Shown: one piece after another, positions 16,062 to 29,727 of the stretch
How positions within the stretch are numbered: position 1 is the first letter of the stretch
How the letters are laid out: every line of letters begins with the position of its first letter
Source of the DNA: Candidatus Poribacteria bacterium
GTDB lineage: Bacteria; Poribacteria; WGA-4E; WGA-3G
Direction of reading: 5' to 3'
DNA length: 64,000 bases
NCBI GenBank assembly: GCA_022827885.1
Contig: JAJEIP010000050.1
Span: 1 to 64,000 of the forward strand
The notes under the pieces: model-generated
Told to the model about the DNA's origin: nothing
The model's input: the letters and a program-made list of their open reading frames with translations, nothing else
Databases searched by the model: none
Program-made: the position numbers and the translations under genes

Positions 16062-16838
16062 TTAACGTCCCGCTTTCAGGCGACCCCAGGTTGTAGAGAG
16101 TTTTCCCGCTGCTTCAACAGCGAGGGCATCTACACCCTGTTCCATGAACGTATTGATCTCATCCTCGCTCAGCGCGCGATTCCAGAGACGGACCTCGTCA
16201 ATAATTCCAGCAAAGACGTAGTTAAGACGTTAACAATCCTGTCCAATCCGCCACGGATCGTCGTTGGCTGCAAGCTTGCCAGGGACATCCCCTTCAGCTT
16301 CTTCCTTGCCGTCAATGTAGATCGTGCCTTTCTTGGTATCGTTGGTGAAAGCGATGTGGATAAATTTTTCAGTGTCAGGCAGACCGGTTGAAATATCGTT
16401 ACGACCCGCTTCGGTTTCAAAACGGAGTTTGAAGGTGCCACCTTCACTAAACAATCCGTATTGAACCCTACCACCGCATCCACCGTGAACGGATTTACCG
16501 ACAATCTGGCGTGTGCCGTTCCAATGCTCGGCGTTAACCCACGCCATAAACGTCATTTCATCCACATTCAGTTCCGGAGTGCTTTCGACAGTAACAAAAA
16601 CATCGCTGCCTTCACCCCCAAATTCCAACGCCTTATCGAATTTGCCGTCAACCCATTCTGGATTGTCAATTACACCGTCATGCCCGTTTCCGCTAAGATC
16701 TTCCGCTTTGTCCCCCTTGCCTTCATCATAGGAGTGGTACACCACCAAGCCATCCAGGAACTCTGCTGGACCGATAGACATAGCGAAGGGTGTCACTACC
16801 AAAAGTAGTGTGATGGATAAACAAATAGCCAGTTTCAT
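16062..16838 (-). pseudogene. LamG-domain exported protein interrupted by an in-frame TAA
   Basis: From ATG 16838 (strong GGGAGG ribosome site) the frame encodes a signal peptide (LAICLSITLLLVVTPFAMSI) and a LamG/concanavalin-like domain (GLVVYHSYDEGKGDKAEDLS and following), and stops at 16230-16232 after WRIGQDC. Beyond the TAA the same frame stays open for 55 codons, reading RLNYVFAGIIDEVRLWNRAL and ending TTWGRLKAGR before a true TAA at 16062. The paralogue at 19167-19955 reads GQDCERLNYVFAGIIDEVSL at this place, so a GAA (Glu) codon has become TAA. The truncated form loses the last strands of the jelly-roll and is probably non-functional. Read-through, a sequencing error or a recent mutation are all possible. 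Confidence 0.8.
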
Positions 16839-17154: not shown

Positions 17155-19065
17155 TCAAGCGTTCAGGCCGAGTTGACTGCTCAGTTCCATCAAGCGTCTA
17201 TTAATGCCGGTCTTATCAATCCGATTGCCATCTACAAATTCTTGATATGGCGGCGACAGGGGTGCCTCTGGGATCATGTTCCGGGAATTCGCCTCCCGTA
17301 ACGCTAACAATCCCATGAAAAGCTGCATCTCCGGTGAGTAGTCAGGGATAAAGTCATCTAATGCTTGACGGAGTTCGGCTTCAGTGAAGGTATCGCGTCC
17401 GTCGCGTTTCGCGATGTTACTCGCACGCTGAACAATCAGGGAAAGGTCCCGGGCAGTCAACCCATCCGTTGCTGAATCGCCAACAAGCCCGCGGAAGTCG
17501 AATGGATCGGCGGCTTCTCCTTGGCAGAATATCTTTAAAATCTCTATCCTGCCTTCAGCATTTGGCGGTAGCAGGATTAATTTAGTGTCGAAAATGCCGT
17601 ATCGTCGAAAAATCTGCGGCATCAGGTCTGGACGGCTTGATGCACCGATCCATATCACTCTCCCGTGCAGAGAAGGATCGCTGATAGCGTTCACGAGGTT
17701 TTGTGGGAACGGCTGCTGTTCTTCTATATGCCTCGCTATGCGTGGCGAGGCCTGTTCAATTTCATCCATAAAGACAACCGTGGGTGAAATCCCTCGGATA
17801 AAATTGATAGCAGCATTTAAGTTCCGCTCATAAGTGTTCCCATTCTCATTGATGTTTACCGCTATCTCACCGACCTGACTGGCGTATCGGAGTTGGACAA
17901 ACGTCATGTCCGCCTCGCCTGCAAGCCCCTTCGCGAAGTAGATCTTACCGGTGCCGGGAGGACCCAGGAAGAGCATACCCCGCGGCACACGACGCAGATC
18001 TCGATTTCTCATCCCTTCTGCAATATCCTTAATTGTTGACGTCACATACCAGCCATCATCTGAAGCATCCGTGTGGGTTTCACTGAGTTCAAGGACGCCG
18101 TGGCTGAAAGTCTTAATGCTCTCCCGTCGGTATCTCACAAGCGGTTCCCCGCCTGTCTGCTGTCCTGCAGATGCTGCCTGTTTCACAACATCGTGAATGC
18201 CGAAGAGGTTCAGCCCTATTGTCTCGCGTGCAACGGACGCTCTGTCGTGCTCGTTTCCAAGAGTTGCCCGCATTTGCGACATCGGATCCGAGATATTGTA
18301 GAGATATTCAATAAAGTGGAGGCGTTGATCGTAGTCTGGAAACGGAATTTCTATCAGCGGAATCTCCGGATTCACGGTGAGATTCGGATGAATGTCATGG
18401 GTGTTATGGGTAAGAAGTAGAATGATGTGTTTACGCTTTCGGATCTCCAAGTCGGATGCCCAATGCTGCATCTGATTGAAAAAGCGTTGCAGGTCATCAT
18501 TGGAGGCACTGCTCAACGAAGGGGCGTTTGGGGCGAGTTGCTCCAGGAAGTTGATAACCAAGCCGACTCTCGCCTTGTCTTGCTGCAAAAGATGTTTCAA
18601 TCTTTCCTGCAACGCCTCCGAAGGGGCAGGATCTATATGCATGAACGGGTCTTCATGCGGCTTATCGAACGCCAAAGTGGCATTAATTCTTCTGCGTGCG
18701 ATCTGTGGATCTATTTCATGCTCAGTGCGGTGTGCGTCTTCTGCTTCCCTAAAACGTCGAAAGGTCTGAAGCCATGTCGCGATACTCTGAAAATGAAAGA
18801 CACCGGTTTTCTCGTACTTCGGGGCAATGTCCAACATTTTTTGCGTCGCTTGCCACCGCTGGATATTAGGCAAATCGATGCCTTGTGATGTATTATATCC
18901 CAGGACGAGTTCACAACCCGCCAGATTGAGTTGCTCCATGAGATATTCTGTAGTCGGCAAGTAGCCGTACACATCGTCATGTAACAGGTCTTGGACGTTG
19001 AAGTGGAGGAGAAATTGATGTGCAGACCCAGCATCGCAGTGTCTTTTTATCTGTTCCCAAAACAT
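17155..19065 (-). CDS. AAA+ family ATPase with altered Walker A
   Basis: The 636-residue protein has an N-terminal half (1-330) without a family I recognise. It includes a RecA-like region (LVINFLEQLAPNAPSL, HIILLLTHNTHDIH) that resembles a degenerate ATPase-like fold. The C-terminal AAA+ domain carries Walker A GPPGTGKIYFAKGLAGEA near residue 370, Walker B VVFMDEIEQ near 433, sensor 1 VIWIGASSRPD and an arginine-finger-like IFRRYG. The Walker A Thr/Ser that binds Mg2+ is Ile (codon ATC, checked). ATP may bind, but hydrolysis is doubtful unless another residue helps. The leader motif TTGCAATAAGGTAAAATTAA ends at its ATG. LamG genes flank it on both sides, and no client is evident. Confidence 0.75.
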   Translation of the reverse strand: MFWEQIKRHCDAGSAHQFLLHFNVQDLLHDDVYGYLPTTEYLMEQLNLAGCELVLGYNTSQGIDLPNIQRWQATQKMLDIAPKYEKTGVFHFQSIATWLQTFRRFREAEDAHRTEHEIDPQIARRRINATLAFDKPHEDPFMHIDPAPSEALQERLKHLLQQDKARVGLVINFLEQLAPNAPSLSSASNDDLQRFFNQMQHWASDLEIRKRKHIILLLTHNTHDIHPNLTVNPEIPLIEIPFPDYDQRLHFIEYLYNISDPMSQMRATLGNEHDRASVARETIGLNLFGIHDVVKQAASAGQQTGGEPLVRYRRESIKTFSHGVLELSETHTDASDDGWYVTSTIKDIAEGMRNRDLRRVPRGMLFLGPPGTGKIYFAKGLAGEADMTFVQLRYASQVGEIAVNINENGNTYERNLNAAINFIRGISPTVVFMDEIEQASPRIARHIEEQQPFPQNLVNAISDPSLHGRVIWIGASSRPDLMPQIFRRYGIFDTKLILLPPNAEGRIEILKIFCQGEAADPFDFRGLVGDSATDGLTARDLSLIVQRASNIAKRDGRDTFTEAELRQALDDFIPDYSPEMQLFMGLLALREANSRNMIPEAPLSPPYQEFVDGNRIDKTGINRRLMELSSQLGLNA

Positions 19066-19166: not shown

Positions 19167-19955
19167 CTAATGTGCAATTTTGATGTTGCCCCAAGTGGTG
19201 GCTAATTTCGCACGAGGGTCAACAGACACCCCTAAGTCTTGTGCTCCAGTAATTTCGTCAGCACTCAAGGCGCGGTTCCAGAGAGAAACCTCATCTATAA
19301 TGCCCGCGAAGACATAGTTGAGGCGTTCGCAATCCTGCCCGATCCGCCACGGATCATCGTTGGCGTTCAGTTCACCCGGCACTTCGCCTTCCGCAACTGC
19401 TTCGGCGTTGATGTAGATTGTTCCTGTTTCCCCATCGTTGGTAAAAGCAACGTGAATCCACTCGCCTGTTGCTGGTAGATCGGTTGTGATATCCGCTCTG
19501 CCGCTTGCGGTTTCAAAGCGGAGTTTGAAAACGCCACCTTCGCTGAATAGACCGTATTGTGTTCTACCCGCACACCCACCGTGAACGGATTTACCAACGA
19601 TCTGACGTGTGCCGTTCCAGTGATCTGCATTAATCCATGCCGCAAAGGTGCACTCATTCACGTTCAAGACATCTGTACTCTCAACAGTGACGAACGCGTC
19701 GCTGCCTTCGCCACCAAATCGGAGCGCCTTCCCAATCTGCCCGTCCACCCAATCCGGATTGGAAATTTCACCGTCGTGTCCGTTACCGCTCCCGTCTGCG
19801 GCGAGTGTGCCTTCCCCTTCATCATAAGAATGATGTAGGACAAGCCCATCTGTGAGTGCCGCCGAGACGAACGGTGTAAATAACAGGGTCAGTACTATTG
19901 AGAAACACACAATCCCATAGACTGAGAATCTGCCAGTCAATATTGCATTCTTCAT
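19167..19955 (-). CDS. Exported LamG (concanavalin A-like) domain protein
   Basis: The 262-residue protein has a signal peptide (IVCFSIVLTLLFTPFVSA, cut before ALTDG) and one LamG domain. The domain runs from GLVLHHSYDEGEGTLAADGS through FVTVESTDVLNVNECTFAAW and WRIGQDCERLNYVFAGIIDE to LWNRALSADEI. It ends with a short TTWGNIKI tail that also closes the other LamG proteins here. LamG domains bind carbohydrate or other surface ligands, and no catalytic part is present. It is the intact paralogue of the interrupted gene at 16062-16838. A perfect promoter, an AGGAGG ribosome site seven bases before the ATG and a strong terminator make it a well-expressed single-gene unit. Confidence 0.85.
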   Translation of the reverse strand: MKNAILTGRFSVYGIVCFSIVLTLLFTPFVSAALTDGLVLHHSYDEGEGTLAADGSGNGHDGEISNPDWVDGQIGKALRFGGEGSDAFVTVESTDVLNVNECTFAAWINADHWNGTRQIVGKSVHGGCAGRTQYGLFSEGGVFKLRFETASGRADITTDLPATGEWIHVAFTNDGETGTIYINAEAVAEGEVPGELNANDDPWRIGQDCERLNYVFAGIIDEVSLWNRALSADEITGAQDLGVSVDPRAKLATTWGNIKIAH

Positions 19956-21612: not shown

Positions 21613-21674
21613 GCGTCGATCGGCCAAATTTGCTTAAGTTCTGTCCTACAAAAAAATCAGAAGGAGTTTAGCGA

Positions 21675-22514
21675 ATGATGGAAACCTACAAAGGTTACGT
21701 AAATCCACAACTAATTATTTCTGCTGAGGAATTGAAAGGCGCGCTCGACGATCAAACGTTCTGCATCGTCGATACGCGACCGACCTCCGAATATATCCGC
21801 GGACACATCCCCGGTGCCCTTCATTTAGATTTGTTCGGTTTAAGCCTCATTGATACTCGGAAAGAGACGTTCGATGCCTTTATGTGGATGATAGCATACC
21901 TGTTTCAGCAACGCGGTCTTGACCCGAGTAAACCGATTGTATGGTATGAAGACATATCAGGAACGCGCGCCTCACGCGGGTTCTGGTTTTGCGAATACTT
22001 AGGGCACCCCGAAACCCGTCTATTGGATGGCGGTTTCAAGGCGTGGCTGTCAGCAGATGGGCCTGTGAGTACAGCCGGGGCTGAACCCCCGGAGGTTCCA
22101 CCTTTTCCGATAAATGCGCAACACGATATACACATGGATGCCGATGTGATCCGTGTCCTACTAAACCGAGACGACTTTATTCCGCTTGACACACGCACCG
22201 ACGATGAACACTACGGTCGGGTTGCCCGTGCAGATCGGGCAGGGGCTATTCCGGGTTCCATCCACATTGAATGGCTCGATAATCTTGACGAGGTGGGGGC
22301 ATTCAAACCCGCTAATGAACTCCGGGCGATGTATGAAGCTGTCGGGATTACACCGGAAAAACAGGTAATGTGCTACTGACAGGGCGGCTACCGCTCTTCC
22401 CAAGCCTATTTGGCGTTGCGGCTCTTGGGCTATCCAAAAGTGAGCAACTACATAGGCTCCTGGAAAGAGTGGGGTGACCGGCTGGATCTGCCGGTCGAAA
22501 TTCCAGAAGCTTAG
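21675..22514 (+). CDS. Tandem-domain rhodanese with UGA at the catalytic position (probable selenoprotein)
   Basis: Read through the TGA at 22377-22379, the frame gives 279 residues, the usual length of two-domain thiosulfate/3-mercaptopyruvate sulfurtransferases. Domain 1 (about 10-125) has [20 protein letters not shown] but no catalytic Cys ([15 protein letters not shown]), as is normal for the non-catalytic half. Domain 2 has [20 protein letters not shown] and then [26 protein letters not shown], ending [13 protein letters not shown]. The UGA falls exactly where the persulfide-forming Cys of the CxGGYR loop should be, and the frame stays typical of the family for 44 codons to a TAG. This points to selenocysteine at residue 235. 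The alternative is a nonsense mutation removing the active site. The ATG has an AGGAG site. Confidence 0.8.
22399..22429 (+). promoter_or_regulatory. Candidate bacterial SECIS hairpin
   Basis: CCCAAG (22399-22404) pairs with CTTGGG (22424-22429), and the next CC pairs with GG across a two-base bulge. A 13-base apical loop with several Gs is left. The loop begins 27 bases after the UGA, within the distance known for bacterial SECIS elements (about 16-37). A smaller GCGG/CCGC hairpin lies closer to the UGA. The hairpin is coding, as is usual in bacteria. Confidence 0.55.
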
Positions 22515-22559: not shown

Positions 22560-23300
22560 CTACCGCTTTGAGGTTACGGAGGACCCACGGAGTGTGCCTA
22601 CTGCTTTGGTGACTTCAACCGGATATTCATGCGGAAGGTAATGTCCGGCATTGGGTATCCATACCAACTGAATATTCGGATTGGGCGGAATGCGTAACTT
22701 CTGTTCAGTTAAATCATTCCGTCCTATACCGCCAAAAACTTCATATATCGGGATGCCTGCCCGTTCAAGGTAGGTGTAGGCATCGAAATTTTTGACAGAC
22801 TCCCAGAAAACTTGCCAGACTTGGGACTTAAAGCGGCTTCGCGTTTCTTTTGCTTTCTGCTGAATCTGTGCGATAGCAGCTTCGGGCAGTGAACCGTAGA
22901 ACCGTCCCGTATCGAAAGCACTCCCCGCCGATGAAAGACTTGTCCATCCTTCTAACAACACAAGTTCAGCAACACGCGATGAACGCCGCGCAACTTCCAT
23001 CGCTACCATACCACCCAGACTGTGACCGACAATCGCTAAGTTTTCTACGCGCAAATGGTCTGCAAGGCACAACACATCATCAGCAAGGCTATCTAACGTA
23101 AACGGTTTGGTAGGAACAGCACTCCGTCCATGTCCACGAAAATCGAGAGCGATACAACGCTGCTTACACGGTAATCTTTCAATCACTCGTGTCCAATCCG
23201 ATGCGTCACACCCAGTGCCGTGTAAGAAGAGCAGCGGCTGACCCGATCCTCCTGAATCACGATAAGCCATCTCTCCCCAACAGGTTGCGATTGTTGTCAT
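22560..23300 (-). CDS. Alpha/beta-fold hydrolase
   Basis: The 246-residue protein has LLFLHGTGCDASDW (oxyanion-hole HG), ALDFRGHGRSAVP and the nucleophile elbow IVGHSLGGMVAMEVA with Ser near 93. An acid probably lies in YEVFGGIGRNDLTEQ, and His lies in WIPNAGHYLPHEYP near the end. It is an active-looking hydrolase of the esterase/epoxide-hydrolase/peptidase type, cytoplasmic, with unknown substrate. It lies nine bases after the amidohydrolase on the same strand, so the two probably share a transcript. Confidence 0.85.
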   Translation of the reverse strand: MTTIATCWGEMAYRDSGGSGQPLLFLHGTGCDASDWTRVIERLPCKQRCIALDFRGHGRSAVPTKPFTLDSLADDVLCLADHLRVENLAIVGHSLGGMVAMEVARRSSRVAELVLLEGWTSLSSAGSAFDTGRFYGSLPEAAIAQIQQKAKETRSRFKSQVWQVFWESVKNFDAYTYLERAGIPIYEVFGGIGRNDLTEQKLRIPPNPNIQLVWIPNAGHYLPHEYPVEVTKAVGTLRGSSVTSKR

Positions 23301-26310: not shown

Positions 26311-26901
26311 ATGTTTACGCGCTTTTTTAGCCACGATTTTTCTGTTACCATTTCTCAATTAATGTTACTTGCTTTTGTCGCCATCCTTCCGTGTATTGGC
26401 GGCTGTGGTGAAGATGACAACCCCATTATTGATGATGAGCATGACCACGAACAGGAAGCGGATGCACCCCTTCACGCCGATGCCGACGGCTTTGCCCTGG
26501 AAGTCGATGGAGCGGAGGTCTATCGTCAGTTTCAAGGCACCGATAGCGGTGAGCTCACCGTTGGAGTCGGTCAAGAGATTGAGGTCCATGTCGTATTTCT
26601 TGATGCCAGTGGTGCGGAAGTCCACGTCGGTGAAGAAGAAGGCGAAGACGAGCATGGACATGACGAAGAAGAAATCTTCAGCTTAGGCTTGTCGGATTAC
26701 GATTCCTCCATTATTGAGATCCATCTGGAAGAAGAGGAACACGCCGAAGAGGAACACGATGAAGAAGAGCACGGTGAAGAAGAGATGGGATTTGGACTCG
26801 TTGGGCTGAAAGTGGGCACTACTAAAATCAAACTCCAACTGCTTCACGGAGATCATCCCGATTTCACGGCAGCACTCCTGATACCCGTGACCGTCCAATA
26901 A
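26311..26901 (+). CDS. His/Glu-rich metal-binding lipoprotein
   Basis: The 196-residue protein has a lipoprotein signal (hydrophobic LMLLAFVAILPC then IGGC-GEDD, Cys32), followed by an acidic and His-rich region DDEHDHEQEADAPLHADADG. Two beta-rich segments around 65-100 and 160-196 resemble an Ig-like or cohesin-like module. A second ligand-rich stretch (EEGEDEHGHDEEE and HLEEEEHAEEEHDEEEHGEE) lies between them. It probably captures zinc or a similar ion at the outer membrane and hands it to the TonB receptor encoded 12 bases downstream. An ATAGGAG site precedes the ATG. The His/Glu repeats look prone to slippage in number. Confidence 0.7.
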   Translation: MFTRFFSHDFSVTISQLMLLAFVAILPCIGGCGEDDNPIIDDEHDHEQEADAPLHADADGFALEVDGAEVYRQFQGTDSGELTVGVGQEIEVHVVFLDASGAEVHVGEEEGEDEHGHDEEEIFSLGLSDYDSSIIEIHLEEEEHAEEEHDEEEHGEEEMGFGLVGLKVGTTKIKLQLLHGDHPDFTAALLIPVTVQ

Positions 26902-26913
26902 AGGGAGAGGTCT

Positions 26914-29274
26914 ATGTTAGGCATTTATAGAGGACTTACGCAGTTCCGTTGTAGGTGCGGTTTGAAACCGCACCTGCCGCGTGGGAGTATGCCGAACTCT
27001 GCGATTTTCCGTAAGTCCTGTTATAGAGGTCTGCCGAGGTCTCATCGGATAGGGGCACTTTTTAAGAAGGTCTGTCTATGTGTGTTGGTGTTCGGAGCGG
27101 TAAGTCTGCCCTACTGTTATGGACAGGGACATAGTGCGCAAAACCCACTGCATTCCTTGGAAGGTGAAGTTGTCGAAAAGCTTAGACATATCCGACTCGA
27201 TGCGGTTACAGTCCGTGTGAAGGGACTCGAAGAAAGCGTCCAGACCGATGCAAGCGGCCGGTTTAAGTTCGACGCAGTGCCGGAAGGACAGCAGACGCTT
27301 CAGTTCTTGAAGGTCGGTTATCAGCGGTTTGAACAGGTCGTTGATGTCAAGGCATCCACGCCTTATCTCAAGATTGAACTGGCGGCGTTGCCGTTTCAAC
27401 TGAATACCATCAGAATTTACGGTTCAAATCGTTATCTTTCACAGTTTGAGGAAACAACCGATTTAGCATTGGATGAGGAAGAACTCCGAAGACGGTTAGG
27501 AATGACTTTGGCGAACACATTGGCAGATGAGACCGGCATTTCACAGCGAACGATGGGACGGGCAATCGCTCGTCCTGTTATTCGGGGGTTGGGCGGTGAC
27601 AGGCTGCTCATTCTGGAAAACGGTGAACGCACAGGCGATAAATCCGCCTCCAGTGCCGACCACGCTGTATCCATTGATCCGACGACTGCTGAAGGCGTTG
27701 AAATTACGCGGGGTCCCGCAGCACTCATTTACGGCTCAAGCACTCTGGGCGGTGTTATCAACGTCAAAAGCAATAACATACCCCAAATTCTACCGAGGCG
27801 GCTCGATATGCACCTAACGTTCCAGGCTGAATCTGTTAACTCGGGTTTGACCGGAACAACAGGTTTTACGTTCCCAATGGGTGATTTTGCAGGGAATGTC
27901 GAATGGAATCGACGCCTTGCATCTGACATACAAACGCCGGTGGGGATCCTCGAAAACACTGCCCTTTCAAACGTCAATTTTTCAGGCGGCGCCTCGCTGA
28001 TTAAGCCGTGGGGTTTCATCGGTGCCGCTGGCAGCAGGTATCGTTCAGATTACGGCGTTCCGGGGTCTCCAGAAGGACATATCAGCGGCGTTAACATCGC
28101 ACTTGACAAGCAACGGTATGAAGGGCAGATGGAGTACCGCTTCAATACAAGGATGCTTGAAAAGGTAAAACTTCAGACTGCCTATACGCGTTATCAGCAT
28201 CAAGAGTTGGAGTCGAACGGAACACTTGGCGTCGAATTCGGTCTCTTAACCTATAACGTCTCAGCGATGGCGCATGTGTTAGAGAATGCGATTGCAGGGG
28301 TCTCGGGCGAGTACCGCGACCATGCGACAGATGGATTTTACTGGACACCGCACACCCGTGAGTTTACGCTTGCTGGTTTCTATCTAAACCAATATGACTT
28401 TGACAAACTCACTTTACAGGGAGCTATTCGCTACGACGTTAGGCGTTCGGAACCGTTTAGACCCGGTGCCATTGTCCGAGCTGGAACCGTCCAACGCCGC
28501 GACTTTAAGGGCATGTCAGGGGCTACCGCTGCAATTTACCGCTGGACAGATAAATTGAACATCGGAACTAACTTGATGAAGACGTTCCGCGCACCGGGTA
28601 TCGAAGAACTTTTCAGCGATGGACCGCACTTAGCTGTCTATTCCTATGAGATAGGGAACGCTGAGCTGGAACCTGAGATCGGATATGGTGCTGAGTTCTT
28701 TGTCAAATACGCAACTGATAGGTTCAGACTAAATCTGATCCTGTTCCGAAATCGCATATACAACTACCTCATTCCAAGGAACACTGGTCTGAAGGAGTGG
28801 GGTAGCGGTGCAGCGGGATGGTTGTGGATTTACCAATACATGGGGCATCATGTTCTGATGAATGGAGTTGAGGTCCAGATTGGTGGTGAAGTGCTGCCGC
28901 AAGTTCGCCTTGACTTTGATATGAGCGGCGTCCGTGGGAGGCTTGAACCTACCAGACGACCCTTGGAACGTATCCCGCCCCTCAACGGCAAACTCGTGTT
29001 TAGTTACACACCCTCCCCGTTTCATTTTCACGTGACATCCCGTTTCTCAGGCAGCCAGACCCGACTCGGCGAGTTTGAGGAACCGACAGACGGCTATCTC
29101 GTCTATGATATTGGAGGTTCTCTCAATTTTTCGTGGTGGCAACTGGAAAACATGGTGGTTTTTGAGATTGAAAATCTCCTTGATACCGCATATCGCGAAC
29201 ATTTGTCCCGTATCAAAGAGGTAATGCCGGAACCCGGACGGAACGCGAAGTTTCTCTATAAACTTAATTTTTGA
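26914..29274 (+). CDS. TonB-dependent outer-membrane receptor, ZnuD-like
   Basis: The 786-residue protein has a signal segment (VCLCVLVFGAVSLPYCYG, about residues 53-70). A carboxypeptidase-regulatory-like domain follows (LDAVTVRVKGLEESVQTDAS), then a plug with IRGLGGDRLLILENGERTGD, SADHAVSIDPTTAEGVEITR and GPAALIYGSSTLGGVINV. The beta-barrel ends with the typical aromatic strand KFLYKLNF. The plug phrase S-x-DHAVxxDP with RGPxxLLYGSS is characteristic of ZnuD-type zinc receptors, which fits the His-rich lipoprotein just upstream. The start ATG has AGGGAGAGG. Residues 8-39 are encoded by an in-frame 96-base repeat insertion, and without it the signal region is shorter and more normal. Confidence 0.85.
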   Translation: MLGIYRGLTQFRCRCGLKPHLPRGSMPNSAIFRKSCYRGLPRSHRIGALFKKVCLCVLVFGAVSLPYCYGQGHSAQNPLHSLEGEVVEKLRHIRLDAVTVRVKGLEESVQTDASGRFKFDAVPEGQQTLQFLKVGYQRFEQVVDVKASTPYLKIELAALPFQLNTIRIYGSNRYLSQFEETTDLALDEEELRRRLGMTLANTLADETGISQRTMGRAIARPVIRGLGGDRLLILENGERTGDKSASSADHAVSIDPTTAEGVEITRGPAALIYGSSTLGGVINVKSNNIPQILPRRLDMHLTFQAESVNSGLTGTTGFTFPMGDFAGNVEWNRRLASDIQTPVGILENTALSNVNFSGGASLIKPWGFIGAAGSRYRSDYGVPGSPEGHISGVNIALDKQRYEGQMEYRFNTRMLEKVKLQTAYTRYQHQELESNGTLGVEFGLLTYNVSAMAHVLENAIAGVSGEYRDHATDGFYWTPHTREFTLAGFYLNQYDFDKLTLQGAIRYDVRRSEPFRPGAIVRAGTVQRRDFKGMSGATAAIYRWTDKLNIGTNLMKTFRAPGIEELFSDGPHLAVYSYEIGNAELEPEIGYGAEFFVKYATDRFRLNLILFRNRIYNYLIPRNTGLKEWGSGAAGWLWIYQYMGHHVLMNGVEVQIGGEVLPQVRLDFDMSGVRGRLEPTRRPLERIPPLNGKLVFSYTPSPFHFHVTSRFSGSQTRLGEFEEPTDGYLVYDIGGSLNFSWWQLENMVVFEIENLLDTAYREHLSRIKEVMPEPGRNAKFLYKLNF
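26925..27029 (+). repeat. In-frame palindromic insertion in the TonB receptor gene
   Basis: TTATAGAGG occurs at 26925-26933 and again at 27021-27029, exactly 96 bases apart. Inside lie inverted ends GGACTTACG (26932) and CGTAAGTCC (ending 27018) and a central GTGCGGTTTGAAACCGCAC hairpin. Removing 96 bases joins MLGIYRG to LPRSHRIGALFKKV in frame. A related pair of ends, GGACTTATG/CGTAAGTCC, is at 50736-50933. Confidence 0.75.
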
Positions 29275-29340
29275 AACTATAGGACGGGGACAATCATTTT
29301 TATCATCCGGCCCCGTTCTCGATTTTCTAAGGAGATAAAA

Positions 29341-29727
29341 TTGAAAAGATATTTTAACCACGAATTAGCGGATACGACTGGCGCGTGTCTTTCTGTCGCG
29401 TGCGCGATCCATTGCCTTGCGATGCCGCTTTTAGTCGCAGTTCTGCCTTTGATTGGGTTGGGCTTCCTTGCGAATGAAAGTGCTGAATTGGTTCTTATCC
29501 TTGGGGCAATTGGATTGGCAGTTGGAAGTTTAGCGTGGGGTATTCGACACCACCGAAGTTGGCGAGCGTTGTTGATACTGATAGTGGCATTAGCATTCAT
29601 CGCTACCGCTCAAACAGCGGTTGAAGGCACTTTTGAAGTGGTCTTTCACAGTGTAGGCGGTATTTTACTTGCATCCGCGCATCTCGCAAATCGGTATCTG
29701 TGTAAAACTTGTCCAGCATGCGAGTAG
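29341..29727 (+). CDS. MerC-domain membrane protein
   Basis: The 128-residue protein has four hydrophobic segments, with CLSVACAIHCLAMPLLVAVL in the first pair. The Cys-Cys-His pattern (C-x3-AC-x2-HC) matches MerC-domain proteins. The C-terminus ends NRYLCKTCPACE, a further CxxC pair. It starts at TTG with a strong AAGGAGAT six bases upstream. MerC relatives move or bind metals, and a MerC-like gene next to a ZnuD-like receptor fits a zinc-starvation set. It lies 66 bases after the receptor gene and probably ends the operon. Confidence 0.75.
   Translation: MKRYFNHELADTTGACLSVACAIHCLAMPLLVAVLPLIGLGFLANESAELVLILGAIGLAVGSLAWGIRHHRSWRALLILIVALAFIATAQTAVEGTFEVVFHSVGGILLASAHLANRYLCKTCPACE

Follow-up and report, generated by a model that had tools for sequence, protein, structure and literature searches.

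The first rhodaneses with selenocysteine (Sec) in COG2897/cd01449 came from metagenomes, those of the Sargasso Sea and GOS (PMC1088965, PMC2398784), and the original prediction for this locus was right to place such proteins in marine metagenomes. A 2026 review lists the Sec rhodanese as 'rhodanese-like form 4, UxxG' (PMC13188914). In form 4, whose published representatives are MCY3690685.1, MQG53192.1 and AACY01016424, two rhodanese domains stand in tandem and Sec takes the catalytic position in the C-terminal one. The model of the bacterial SECIS (bSECIS) prescribes a loop of 3-9 nt on a stem of 4-16 bp, a G in the first two loop positions, a UGA-to-loop spacing of 16-37 nt and an energy of -7.5 kcal/mol or lower, and some bacterial SECIS elements depart from this consensus (PMC13188914). 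Sponge symbionts from various phyla have been noted to carry selA and selB (PMC5649159), and our literature search for Poribacteria with selenoproteins or rhodanese found no report.

The window, meaning the whole 64,000-nucleotide stretch that was analysed, comes from one contig (C8) of a poribacterial genome of 5.13 Mb in 148 contigs that is 96.7% complete. Our main reading, to which we give a probability of roughly 0.7, is that one of its genes encodes a two-domain COG2897 (SseA/TST-like) rhodanese with Sec235 as the catalytic residue and, jointly with this, that its UGA codon is served by a distal SECIS brought near by a bridging helix. The protein is a member of the already known Sec rhodanese kind; its UQGG motif fits form 4, to which it is likened by description. 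It differs from form 4 as described in being a near-universal gene of one poribacterial order and in the unusual RNA structure that follows its UGA. Feature coordinates are collected in Table 1, and RNA positions (nt) are counted from the U of the UGA at 22377.

Table 1. Features of the Sec rhodanese locus, in window coordinates
Feature	Position	Strand	Remarks
Sec rhodanese CDS	21675..22514	+	ATG at 21675 to TAG at 22512-22514; 279 residues; Sec at residue 235
AAGGAG, probable Shine-Dalgarno sequence	21661..21666	+	8 nt before the ATG at 21675; from sequence reading
In-frame UGA read as Sec	22377..22379	+	codon 235; nt 1-3; based on orthologues and sel genes
Helix L, 5' arm, nt 15-22, CCGCUCUU	22391..22398	+	starts 11 nt past the UGA
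Helix L, 3' arm, nt 89-96, AAGAGUGG	22465..22472	+	pairing probability of L in the window 0.96
Hairpin H, nt 100-120, GACCGGC-UGGAUCU-GCCGGUC	22476..22496	+	proposed SelB-binding hairpin of the distal SECIS; codon usage near invariant
Loop of H, nt 107-113, UGGAUCU	22483..22489	+	UGGAUYU in all homologues but one; second position G
Inner helix S5, 5' arm, nt 39-43, GUUGC	22415..22419	+	in the predicted fold of 60/67 homologues; little covariation
Inner helix S5, 3' arm, nt 68-72, GCAAC	22444..22448	+	in the predicted fold of 60/67 homologues; little covariation
CCAA-GCCUAU-UUGG hairpin, apparently that of the original prediction	22400..22413	+	16/67 homologues; above -3 kcal/mol; probably not functional

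The UGA codon at the rhodanese active site

The TGA at 22377 is the only one in frame within the coding sequence, and 44 codons separate it from the terminal TAG; the frame and its length had been described in the same way by the original prediction. The read-through protein matched PF00581 twice (Pfam; E 7.4e-36, 123 bits) and aligned over its full length with its best PDB relatives, the Azotobacter vinelandii rhodanese RhdA (1e0c) and Thermus thermophilus 1uar. The UGA codon fell on the catalytic Cys of both, which agrees with the claim that the TGA stands at the persulfide position. In the resulting layout the N-terminal domain is inactive and the C-terminal domain is catalytic, with Sec235 opening the six-residue active-site loop UQGGYR. 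An AlphaFold model with Cys placed at 235 reached a mean pLDDT of 94.4 and a pTM of 0.92, and Foldseek superposed it on 1e0c with a TM of 0.83 and on 1uar with a TM of 0.85.

RhdA (1e0c, 1h4k, 1h4m) and 1uar resemble the protein in fold, in length, in the six-residue loop and in the inactive N-terminal domain, but they carry Cys rather than Sec, the RhdA loop reads CQTHHR, and identity is about 30-32%. EanB (PDB 6h98, 6ktv) of anaerobic ergothioneine biosynthesis shares the two-domain core (TM 0.84), but it is longer, uses Cys412 and is 23-24% identical, and nothing here points to the EanB reaction. Form 3 (NF041203, CxU) likewise combines a rhodanese domain with a Cys two residues before the Sec, as in the C-Y-U of most homologues here, but is a single-domain protein of 126 residues, and the match here scored 35 against 115 bits, far below the cut-off. 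That Cys, C233, is replaced by Ser in some homologues and is thus non-essential, being kept in most but not all of them. No NCBIfam model scored over its cut-off, and the 3-mercaptopyruvate sulfurtransferase model NF008557 stayed below threshold at 97.5 bits against 250. By analogy with the chemistry of the family, the sulfur in transit is probably bound to Sec235 as a selenosulfide (Enz-Se-S-); the residue would take up sulfane sulfur in this form and then hand it on.

An orthologue of at least 57% identity was present in 71 of 85 poribacterial genomes. The codon at position 235 was UGA in 68 of these (including one gene cut off by the end of its contig), Cys in three and any other codon in none. 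UGA was retained in orthologues down to 67% protein identity, far more often than chance would allow, and the UQGG motif was present in all UGA homologues. The three Cys orthologues, which use TGC or TGT, make up family f3 (G037, contig C79; G040, C222; G042, C15). All named relatives found were Candidatus Poribacteria. No Sec homologue outside Poribacteria was found among viral contigs, and plasmid relatives were less than 60% identical (32-37% for the best listed) and mostly annotated as ordinary sulfurtransferases.

The genome also carries the complete machinery for Sec insertion: selA (C33:70800-72158, 601 bits), selB (C136:16392-18287, 350 bits), a tRNA-Sec gene (selC, 75 bits, anticodon UCA) about 60 bases behind selB, and selD (C144:60983-61906, 360 bits), which has an in-frame UGA of its own. 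A lipoyl synthase-like gene was seen after selB-selC (G000:C136:16392-18439). In the survey of the 85 genomes of the phylum, 74 had a selC over the cut-off, and for selB and selD the number was 76 each; every one of those selD genes contained one in-frame UGA. The original prediction had proposed Sec at the persulfide position and had named the four sel genes and Cys-containing homologues as the places to look; both lines of evidence bore it out, and Sec insertion at this UGA has all the certainty that sequence evidence can give. Since selB and selC are still present in two of the three genomes with a Cys orthologue, the Sec/Cys exchange occurred with the Sec trait still in place; the direction of the exchange could not be read from the tree.

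Decoding of the UGA as Cys, Trp or some other residue, by readthrough or under a changed code, is very unlikely. UGA readthrough is known in bacteria generally, but here the codon swaps with Cys only, the Sec machinery is complete and includes a SelD with its own in-frame UGA, and a dedicated conserved RNA structure follows the codon. In addition, a genuine UGA stop ends some orthologues (L099, L100 and others), so that UGA is not generally reassigned, and we rejected a changed genetic code on these grounds. To explain the UGA as a genuine stop or as an error of sequencing, in a truncated gene or pseudogene, is scarcely credible. A standard gene caller does end the frame at 22379, after 234 residues, which is the truncated product that had been foreseen, but 68 genomes at species level share this UGA, single-contig assemblies among them, and a conserved frame follows it to a normal length. 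The conserved downstream frame led us to reject the pseudogene reading.

The genome encodes a second two-domain rhodanese (C27:11511-12341, 29% identity) without an in-frame stop, and such an ordinary rhodanese occurs in nearly all genomes having the Sec rhodanese. The Sec form is near-universal in an order of sponge symbionts and has stayed a selenoprotein across deep divergence. Its retention despite an ordinary rhodanese in nearly every genome points to a valuable selenium-dependent sulfur reaction.

Search of the usual SECIS zone

The original prediction had assigned the SECIS to a local hairpin whose loop lies about 27 bases past the UGA. Such a hairpin does exist in the window, but it is weak and is shared by a minority of homologues, so the assignment itself did not hold; the conserved RNA structure lies instead at 22391-22496. 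Folding of 22377-22440 alone gave nothing unusual (z -0.86). Even with the energy rule dropped, 39 of 67 UGA homologues had no bSECIS-type hairpin in the prescribed zone (nt 4-60). The commonest hairpin in this zone, with its loop at nt 28 and evidently the one meant by the original prediction, was found in 16 of 67, and none was below -3 kcal/mol. An Rfam scan of the locus returned no RNA family.

The positive control was selD, in which GCUC-CGGGU-GAGC or the compensated GAUC-CGGGG-GAUC was recovered 16 nt past the UGA in 20 of 21 sequences. The SelD protein of this genome (L025) contains Sec in its turn (CAG-U-ASK), and its gene has a canonical SECIS hairpin, whose stem shows a compensatory A-U for C-G between poribacterial families.

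Helix L and hairpin H downstream of the UGA codon

Synonymous variation was suppressed in two places, at the UGA (codons 234-248) and at nt 97-120; the strongest suppressed block had a permutation p of 0.001. The second of these blocks forms a perfect 7-bp hairpin (H), and a consensus fold added an 8-bp helix (L), which H follows at a distance of 3 nt. Of the 7-bp helices that the gene could form (336,610 were scanned), L and H alone were both conserved and compensated. When whole codon columns were exchanged among positions coding for the same amino acid (n=400), one such helix appeared in 8 permutations and two appeared in none.

Across 8 pairs and 67 distinct UGA homologues, L had one unpaired cell. 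Pair 18-93 of L was C-G in 50 homologues, U-A in 13, U-G in 4 and C-A in none, and pair 102-118 of H was C-G in 57 and U-A in 10. We mapped 18-93 on a tree of the gene segment that precedes the UGA; the pair had changed repeatedly, and among UGA homologues each change led to another pairing state. A model of correlated evolution was preferred for this pair (LRT 21.2, 4 df, p 2.9e-4), which had been picked after inspection, so that the permutation test is the fairer figure. Change on both sides was limited to one pair per helix, and 102-118 changed once on the tree of UGA homologues. In pair counts from a 28-sequence alignment, 99.8% of cells were paired, compared to 38-56% for slid partners.

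The predicted probability of L exceeded 0.5 in 63 of 67 single sequences, and in 67 of 67 when nt 1-14 were taken to be occupied by the ribosome; for H the median was 0.97-1.00. The energy predicted for the window segment, -54.3 kcal/mol, is far lower than for synonymous recodings (-34.8 +/- 4.6) and also lower than for shuffles (-41.8 +/- 3.0). Helix L closes a long imperfect stem of 82 nt, within which the inner helix S5 is fairly conserved and the top is variable. A pseudoknot between the loop of H and nt 32-36 was also considered, with about 98% of cells paired; the pairs are largely G-U and show no two-sided change, and it is not claimed.

In the three Cys orthologues the probability of L was 0.00 and H was absent, and since these orthologues are also the most distant, loss together with Sec is inseparable from divergence. 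The comparison as a whole covers related poribacterial sequences with few variable pairs and distant Cys outgroups. Within this range, the RNA structure predicted for L and H is well supported.

We also considered a reading of H at the DNA level, as a palindromic operator bound by a transcription factor, in place of an RNA element. Its 21-bp inverted repeat with 7-bp arms has the typical size of an operator, and the C-G to T-A change preserves the palindrome. Against this, the 7-nt spacer is conserved and asymmetric, H occurs once in the genome, there is no obvious promoter near and the next downstream gene is convergent (22560-23300, minus strand); an operator would also leave helix L unexplained. 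This makes an operator very unlikely.

A candidate bridged distal SECIS

Hairpin H agrees with the bSECIS model in its 7-bp stem, its 7-nt loop and its energy of -13.1 kcal/mol in the window, and its loop shares with bacterial SECIS loops a G in the second position. It departs from the model in its distance from the UGA, since its loop lies 103 nt out, far beyond 16-37 nt. With nt 15-96 looped out the spacing would be 21 nt, within the canonical range, which led to the proposal that L bridges the gap. Helix L begins about where the mRNA entry of the ribosome would be; L would hold H close, SelB may bind H beside the ribosome, and the SelA/SelB/SelC/SelD system would then insert Sec at the UGA.

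L and H together are probably the SECIS of the Sec rhodanese. We lean towards a previously undescribed class of bacterial SECIS, in which SelB would bind a hairpin some 105 nt past the UGA that L brings back to canonical distance. As far as found in the literature, the architecture of L and H is undescribed. A search for further copies of H in the genome gave none at E<1, so H is not a motif common to all selenoproteins of this genome.

A third structure, hairpin A, pairs nt 5-11 with 15-21 and excludes L because it shares the strand of L's 5' arm. Its pairs were formed in 97.4% of cells with no compensatory change; it has a 3-nt NUA loop 8 nt past the UGA, and pair 9-17 is broken in 9 of 67 homologues. 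The minimum-energy consensus fold of the 67 sequences contained A and not L, whereas the pairing probability was higher for L. Hairpin A takes in the UGA itself when drawn over nt 2-23 (22378-22399 of the window). With no covariation and a loop of 3 nt, we rejected A as the conserved element. A ribosome-driven switch between A and L, with A as the state before the ribosome arrives, is conceivable.

These observations bear on the main rival explanation, in which the Sec rhodanese relies on a short, degenerate SECIS no more than about 60 nt from the UGA, for example hairpin A (nt 2-23) or one of the weak hairpins of the usual zone, and L and H have some other role such as pausing, mRNA stability or regulation. 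The suppressed synonymous variation right after the UGA (codons 234-248) and the high pairing of hairpin A speak for it, as do the non-consensus bacterial SECIS elements on record (PMC13188914) and the SECIS-like hairpins downstream of the TGA in the Sargasso Sea Sec rhodanese (PMC1088965). However, hairpins of the canonical zone are common to at most 16 of 67 homologues with none below -3 kcal/mol, hairpin A has an NUA loop and an uncompensated break at 9-17 in 9 of 67, and helix L accounts for the conservation of nt 15-22. We regard a short SECIS as possible but doubtful, and favor the distal SECIS formed by L and H.

If the bridged SECIS is true, a bacterial SECIS need not sit right behind its UGA, as folding can make up the distance, and SECIS programs that scan 16-37 nt past the UGA would miss such selenoprotein genes.

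The neighbours of the Sec rhodanese gene name no substrate for it: they are an upstream MATE transporter, a convergent hydrolase, an amidohydrolase and moeA, kept in only part of the relatives. Elsewhere in the window, two genes on the minus strand (16230-16838 and 19167-19955) encode similar secreted LamG-like proteins (LVxHSYDEGxG...) that flank an ATPase gene (17155-19065) and look like a duplicated pair. Farther along, 26311-29727 looks like a metal-uptake cluster, with consecutive genes for a His/Glu-rich protein, a TonB-dependent receptor and a small membrane protein.
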